From the IMG/VR virus record IMGVR_UViG_3300020438_000311, positions 1-22,163 of that record: a stretch of DNA of 22,163 nucleotides; one strand, written 5' to 3'. A program made the translations under genes and the position numbers. Source of the DNA: a virus. Every line of letters starts with the position of its first letter. The first letter of the stretch is position 1. This document shows positions 2,192 through 2,221 of this stretch, in pieces. Below the pieces are notes generated by a model. It ran no database searches and was not told the origin of the DNA. It saw only the letters and a program-made list of their open reading frames with translations.

Positions 2192-2192
2192 G

Positions 2193-2221
2193 TAACATTC
2201 TCTTAACATTTTCTTAACATT
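2193..2221 (+). repeat. Three TAACATT direct repeats at 11-bp spacing (operator-like)
   Basis: TAACATT occurs at 2193-2199, 2204-2210 and 2215-2221, so the period is exactly 11 bp, about one helical turn. The unit is TAACATTCTCT, then TAACATTTTCT, then TAACATT. The array begins two bases after the carbamoyltransferase stop and ends just before the promoter-like TATAGTTATAT. Same-face spacing fits an activator or repressor binding cooperatively upstream of the exported-protein gene. Function is inference; the repeats themselves are directly visible. Confidence 0.6.

Follow-up and report, generated by a model that had tools for sequence, protein, structure and literature searches.

A Pho-box-like array of three direct repeats upstream of a predicted exported-protein gene in a T4-related phage

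Introduction

OmpR-family response regulators bind DNA as monomers lying side by side on direct repeats spaced by 10–11 bp. In the E. coli PhoB box, direct repeats recur every 11 bp and end just upstream of the -10 element. Can a phage place its own genes under a host regulator of this kind? Cyanophages provide the precedent: host PhoB binds promoters of Synechococcus phage S-PM2d, and the same published test warns that Pho-box prediction alone is unreliable in phages (PMC10976474). A further cyanophage case, pstS of P-SSM2, is cited in that paper. Among Bacteroidota, Flavobacterium johnsoniae has a large Pho regulon induced at low phosphate (PMC8115612). In Riemerella anatipestifer phoPR is upregulated in phosphate starvation, and PhoP is reported to bind a motif whose most conserved bases are TTTAACA and which was found to be most similar to that of E. 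coli ArcA (PMC9603813).

Here we describe a repeat array in a marine phage sequence of 22,163 nucleotides (IMG/VR record IMGVR_UViG_3300020438_000311), referred to below in its entirety as the window. The array comes closest in form to a Pho-box-type site, with 11-bp direct repeats for an OmpR-family regulator of the PhoB/PhoP type. Like the E. coli PhoB box, it consists of 11-bp direct repeats just upstream of a -10-like element; the core is TTAACAT in the phage and CTGTCAT in E. coli. With the cyanophage Pho boxes (S-PM2d, P-SSM2 pstS) it shares a direct-repeat operator whose proposed reader is the host phosphate regulator. It differs from them in the probable host phylum, in the repeat itself (TTAACATT here) and in the gene served, which is a small, predicted exported protein rather than a phosphate-binding protein or an enzyme. 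Binding has been proven for the cyanophage boxes and is proposed for the present array. With the PhoP sites of R. anatipestifer, read by an OmpR-family regulator of the Flavobacteriales, it has TTTAACA in common (PMC9603813).

The array and its single-gene unit

The array (2192–2221, plus strand), a putative response-regulator operator, directly adjoins a carbamoyltransferase gene (485–2191; PF02543/PF16861), whose stop codon it follows. TAACATT occurs at 2193–2199, 2204–2210 and 2215–2221, with a period of exactly 11 bp, within a longer unit that reads GTAACATT at 2192–2199 and TTAACATT at 2203–2210 and 2214–2221. Could such an arrangement be fortuitous? Lone TAACATT words are at chance frequency in the window (14 against 11.3 expected), so it is the arrangement alone that is unusual. 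About 7e-7 exact triplets of this word are expected at period 11; among 150 Markov-3 surrogate windows, a single one contained a triplet of any heptamer at any period of 8–20 bp, and no window had one at period 11. The only N4-spaced TAACATT pairs in the window with fewer than three mismatches are the two perfect ones of the array itself. The surrogate windows and the pair scan rule out a chance origin, and they bear out the initial annotation, which had reported the three exactly spaced copies and had stated that no other gap in the window has such an array. A reading as an RNA element was dropped, as an Rfam scan of the window returned no family at its gathering score. The window also contains CTTAN7CTTA, a cyanobacterial pattern quoted in PMC3037559.

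What would the array control? Eight base pairs past it lies a -10/-7-like element, TATATT (2230–2235), followed by a Shine-Dalgarno-like GAGG (2239–2242) and by a gene for a protein of 110 amino acids (2252–2584; alternative start 2246). This layout agrees with the earlier proposal that a regulator would bind the array, in helical phase, ahead of a promoter-like element. As the gene stops at 2584 and a terminator-like hairpin with a T tail follows (2587–2612), a one-gene unit is possible, again as had been proposed; upstream transcription may also read through into the gene. The stem of the hairpin is invariant in relatives except for one G-U to A-U change. Might an ordinary sigma-70 promoter be sufficient? 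The consensus scan is uninformative on this candidate, because sites were no more numerous than in shuffles.

The protein is probably exported, to judge from its signal-peptide-like N-terminus (a hydrophobic stretch ending MYSQ). It has no match in Pfam, PHROG or NCBIfam, and no relative was found in named phage records. In 9 chosen genomes and 247 genomes of the phylum Bacteroidota, no convincing cellular relative was detected; two matches among the 247 have several stops inside. The AlphaFold model is of low confidence (pLDDT 54).

Other elements of the phage group deserve mention. The motif (A)TATTTATAT recurs in the window upstream of 3087, 5824, 13283, 18375 and 20867, and also in L093–L095 and L098; it is probably the group's own promoter element, resembling a modified Bacteroidota -7 box. 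The core that follows the array, TATAG/CTTATAT, is one base off TATATTTATAT, a motif that precedes many other genes of the phage, and might be, as a suggestion only, a weak, activator-dependent variant of it. Separately, the leader of a 77-residue membrane-protein-like gene (2764–2997) is nearly invariant among six related phages. In an alignment fold of this leader (2684–2778), GGAG and the start codon are paired in a long stem in which C-to-T changes preserve G-U pairs. Taken by itself, the window strand has a fold only marginally better than those of shuffles (z -1.8); a translation-control element is possible.

Conservation in viral relatives

Relatives of the small protein with upstream DNA are found (tblastn) in seven viral contigs, L002–L007 and L129, at 75–96% identity; the seven comprise six full-length relatives plus L129, and an eighth, L008, covers the end of the gene only. 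The array is retained at the same place in all seven, so the reading of the initial annotation survives this comparison, which it had itself named as a test. Unit 1 reads GTAACATTCTC, TTAACACTTAC or TTAACATTCAC, unit 2 reads TTAACATTTTC or ATAACATTTTC, and unit 3 is invariant. The -10 hexamer is TATATT or TATAAT (the latter in L005) and stands 8 bp from the array throughout.

Might the repeats have no regulatory role, being a recent tandem duplication retained through a short divergence time? All gene-bearing relatives are fairly close, which makes conservation alone weak evidence. Counted by eye, however, substitutions affect none of the 15 TAACA positions and 5 of the 14 remaining positions of the array, so that the cores are spared. 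The array also persists where the upstream genes differ, and its geometry matches that of cellular promoters (see below); a functionless duplication is thus very unlikely. In L002 two other genes separate the carbamoyltransferase gene from the array, and the array and small gene are unchanged, which argues that the array belongs to the small gene. In one relative (L098, 4979–6111) the carbamoyltransferase gene and the array are set apart by two extra genes; one resembles a methyltransferase by eye, and the region is possibly an insertion spot.

Is the array one of many? A second array was not found in the records of six relatives, the longest of 53 kb, a count that covers these fragments and not whole genomes. 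Within these records the repeat array is not scattered at random, and the earlier reading survives this further test, which it had also named. In the related isolates Mel-JY01 and immuto and in record LR756508, where the small-protein gene is absent, the array occurs only as two-mismatch matches, in numbers equal to the control.

These counts bear on who the reader might be. A phage-encoded activator, acting as T4 MotA does at middle promoters, could bind the array and time expression during infection; the phage is related to T4-like phages (it has a gp25-type baseplate protein), and T4-like phages often encode their own transcription factors. Middle promoters of the T4 type would place a recurrent activator box before many genes, whereas each record searched, a fragment of up to 53 kb, holds one array; moreover, the upstream motif that does recur in the phage group is a different one, the promoter-like motif noted above, which as TATTTATA is found in 16 of 40 upstream regions. 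We consider a phage activator distinctly unlikely. The assay proposed in the initial annotation had assumed a phage-encoded regulator, an assumption that finds no support in the single site per record of up to 53 kb and in the occurrence of the array beside cellular phosphate genes. The same two observations indicate a host regulator of the PhoB/PhoP type.

The pattern is also present in other viral contigs (L009–L042), as TTAACATT three times at 11 bp. It was found in 34 stretches, compared with 11 and 16 for control patterns; being just 2–3 times commoner than controls, it cannot by itself be taken as diagnostic in viruses. In 6 of 23 distinct viral contigs, TAnnTTTG lies 18–19 bp past the array, a distance at which control patterns have none. 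This geometry differs from the 8-bp gap of the present phage; Bacteroidota phages apparently have a second class of promoter, in which TAnnTTTG stands 18–19 bp from the array.

The array at cellular phosphate genes

Does the same element occur in cells? Scanning a genome collection for the exact pattern TTAACATTNNN three times yielded 36 loci, none within a long ORF. In 8 of the 36 a phosphate gene identified by Pfam (Na/Pi cotransporter, PiT, PhoU-like or phosphate porin) adjoins the array, the yardstick being general gene content, in which phosphate transporters make up well under 1% of genes, rather than matched random loci. The neighbours are Na/Pi cotransporters (L043, L072), PiT/PHO4 proteins (L051, L064, L074, L078), a PhoU-like DUF47 gene followed by a PiT gene (L053) and a phosphate porin (L049). 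Farther along in L061 and L075 there is a Na/Pi or PiT gene, and the neighbour in L055 looks by eye like a PstC N-terminus, with no Pfam match. Two of these arrays (L043, 3739–3768; L072, 7685–7714) stand ahead of Na/Pi cotransporter genes of Ktedonobacter-like Chloroflexota, which shows that the element extends beyond Bacteroidota. About 25 of the 36 loci have no recognisable phosphate gene beside the array, the neighbours being other or unnamed genes.

In four of the 36 loci (L049, L054, L059, L077) a small exported MORN-like gene reads away from the array. The gene of this Flavobacteriaceae protein (L049, 6056–6412, and L099–L128) has a conserved 11-bp array and TATATTTG upstream and usually lies divergently to phosphate porin and PiT genes. 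The family profile matches in 117 of 149 Flavobacteriaceae genomes. Among 30 loci, chosen as best-scoring members and not as a random sample, all have an array ahead of the MORN-like gene (on average 3.6 mismatches of 24, 8.6 when shuffled), and in 24 a porin_O_P or PiT gene lies divergently within the 1.5-kb flank. MORN-like and PiT genes are at most 3 kb apart in 31 of the 45 genomes that have both, by hand comparison of coordinates.

How close is this cellular locus to the phage unit? Both have the octamer, the 11-bp period and an 8-bp gap to the -7 box, so that in Flavobacteriaceae the same element stands at phosphate-uptake genes of plausible hosts. The MORN-like gene's array, unlike that of the phage, is opposite in orientation and has four units; its consensus is TAATGTTAATTTAATGTTAnnTAAATGTTnnnTAATGTAAA, 8 bp, TATATTTG. 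At some porin promoters, in contrast, the orientation is as in the phage: upstream of the porin genes of L222, L227, L229, L231 and L232 the upstream units are degenerate, and TTCTTTG or TTATTTG follows 8 bp past the array. The order in the phage is TTAACATT, 8 bp, TATATTAA; the -7 box of the Flavobacteriaceae locus is instead TAnnTTTG or TTCTTTG. The DNA following the array in L229, GATATTGGTTAT, resembles the phage's GATATAGTTAT.

The phage protein is a possible distant relative of the MORN-like family, as far as profile comparison goes. With hhalign the probability was 57–75% when 13 or 30 members represented the family, and 1.6% when four did; the score was 33.4 with the signal peptide kept (at most 25.2 in shuffles) and 24.7 for the mature part (at most 21.3). 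HMMER did not separate the phage protein from shuffled sequences against this family, and the MORN_2 Pfam domain has no match in it. The AlphaFold model of the cellular protein is also of low confidence (pLDDT 56). The family has five viral relatives, none with the array and three of them long multi-repeat proteins; the flavobacterial multi-unit form of the array was not found in viral contigs.

Another OmpR-family regulator of the host, for example an ArcA-like redox regulator, might bind the array, in which case the gene would answer to oxygen or envelope stress rather than to phosphate. Such binding is conceivable since direct repeats of TTAACA/TGTTAA with a spacing of about 11 bp are read by an ArcA-like regulator too, and by sequence form alone the reverse strand of the array fits the ArcA box (TGTTAA direct repeats, about 11 bp). 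The likeness of the flavobacterial PhoP motif itself to that of E. coli ArcA (PMC9603813) and the many array loci with no adjoining phosphate gene point the same way. Against this, the array is found repeatedly beside phosphate-uptake genes, at a position conserved in Flavobacteriaceae, and we regard this alternative as unlikely.

The probable host

Which bacterium would supply the regulator? Three phages are nearest by their baseplate proteins (35–41% identity): the Flavobacterium phage immuto, a phage listed for Microcystis, which is nearer than immuto, and an uncultured huge phage. Promoter-like sites in the relatives read TTTG, 20 bp, TATCTTTG or TATATTTG, and the Bacteroidota -7 consensus is TAnnTTTG (PMC9723704). 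Several structural genes of the phage are preceded by Shine-Dalgarno-like sequences; since these are naturally missing in Bacteroidota (PMC6847099), they weigh mildly against such a host. On balance a Bacteroidota host is favoured and, within the phylum, probably one of the Flavobacteriia.

Proposed mechanism and significance

Our preferred reading, which we hold to be probable while leaving appreciable room for error, is that the array serves as operator for a promoter of one gene under host control and is read by an OmpR-family response regulator, most likely the phosphate-starvation regulator PhoB/PhoP of the host. Lined up along one face of the DNA, three monomers of the response regulator would take the place of a -35/-33 element and bring RNA polymerase to the -10/-7 element, which lies 8 bp downstream. 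When the cell is starved for phosphate, PhoB/PhoP in its phosphorylated form would occupy the three half-sites and activate the adjacent promoter. The phage would thus express the small protein mainly on infecting a phosphate-starved Bacteroidota cell, probably of the Flavobacteriia, and the exported protein might act within the envelope, affecting either the uptake of phosphate or the entry of phage.

A broader reading, offered tentatively and rather unlikely as a whole, is that marine Bacteroidota phages encode a small envelope protein induced by phosphate starvation, that this protein descends from a little-known gene accompanying the phosphate porin/transporter genes of the host, and that in starved cells it alters the uptake of phosphate or the porin-dependent entry of phage. 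On this reading the gene would belong to the auxiliary genes for phosphate, without being an enzyme or transporter gene, and would be under host control. From cyanophages, phage genes that respond to phosphate under the control of the host are already known; for Bacteroidota phages none was found in the accessible portions of the open-access literature. If such control is true of the present phage, phages of heterotrophs likewise sense the phosphate status of their hosts. Attention would then also fall on an uncharacterised protein of the flavobacterial phosphate locus, small and exported, with an operator common to host and phage.
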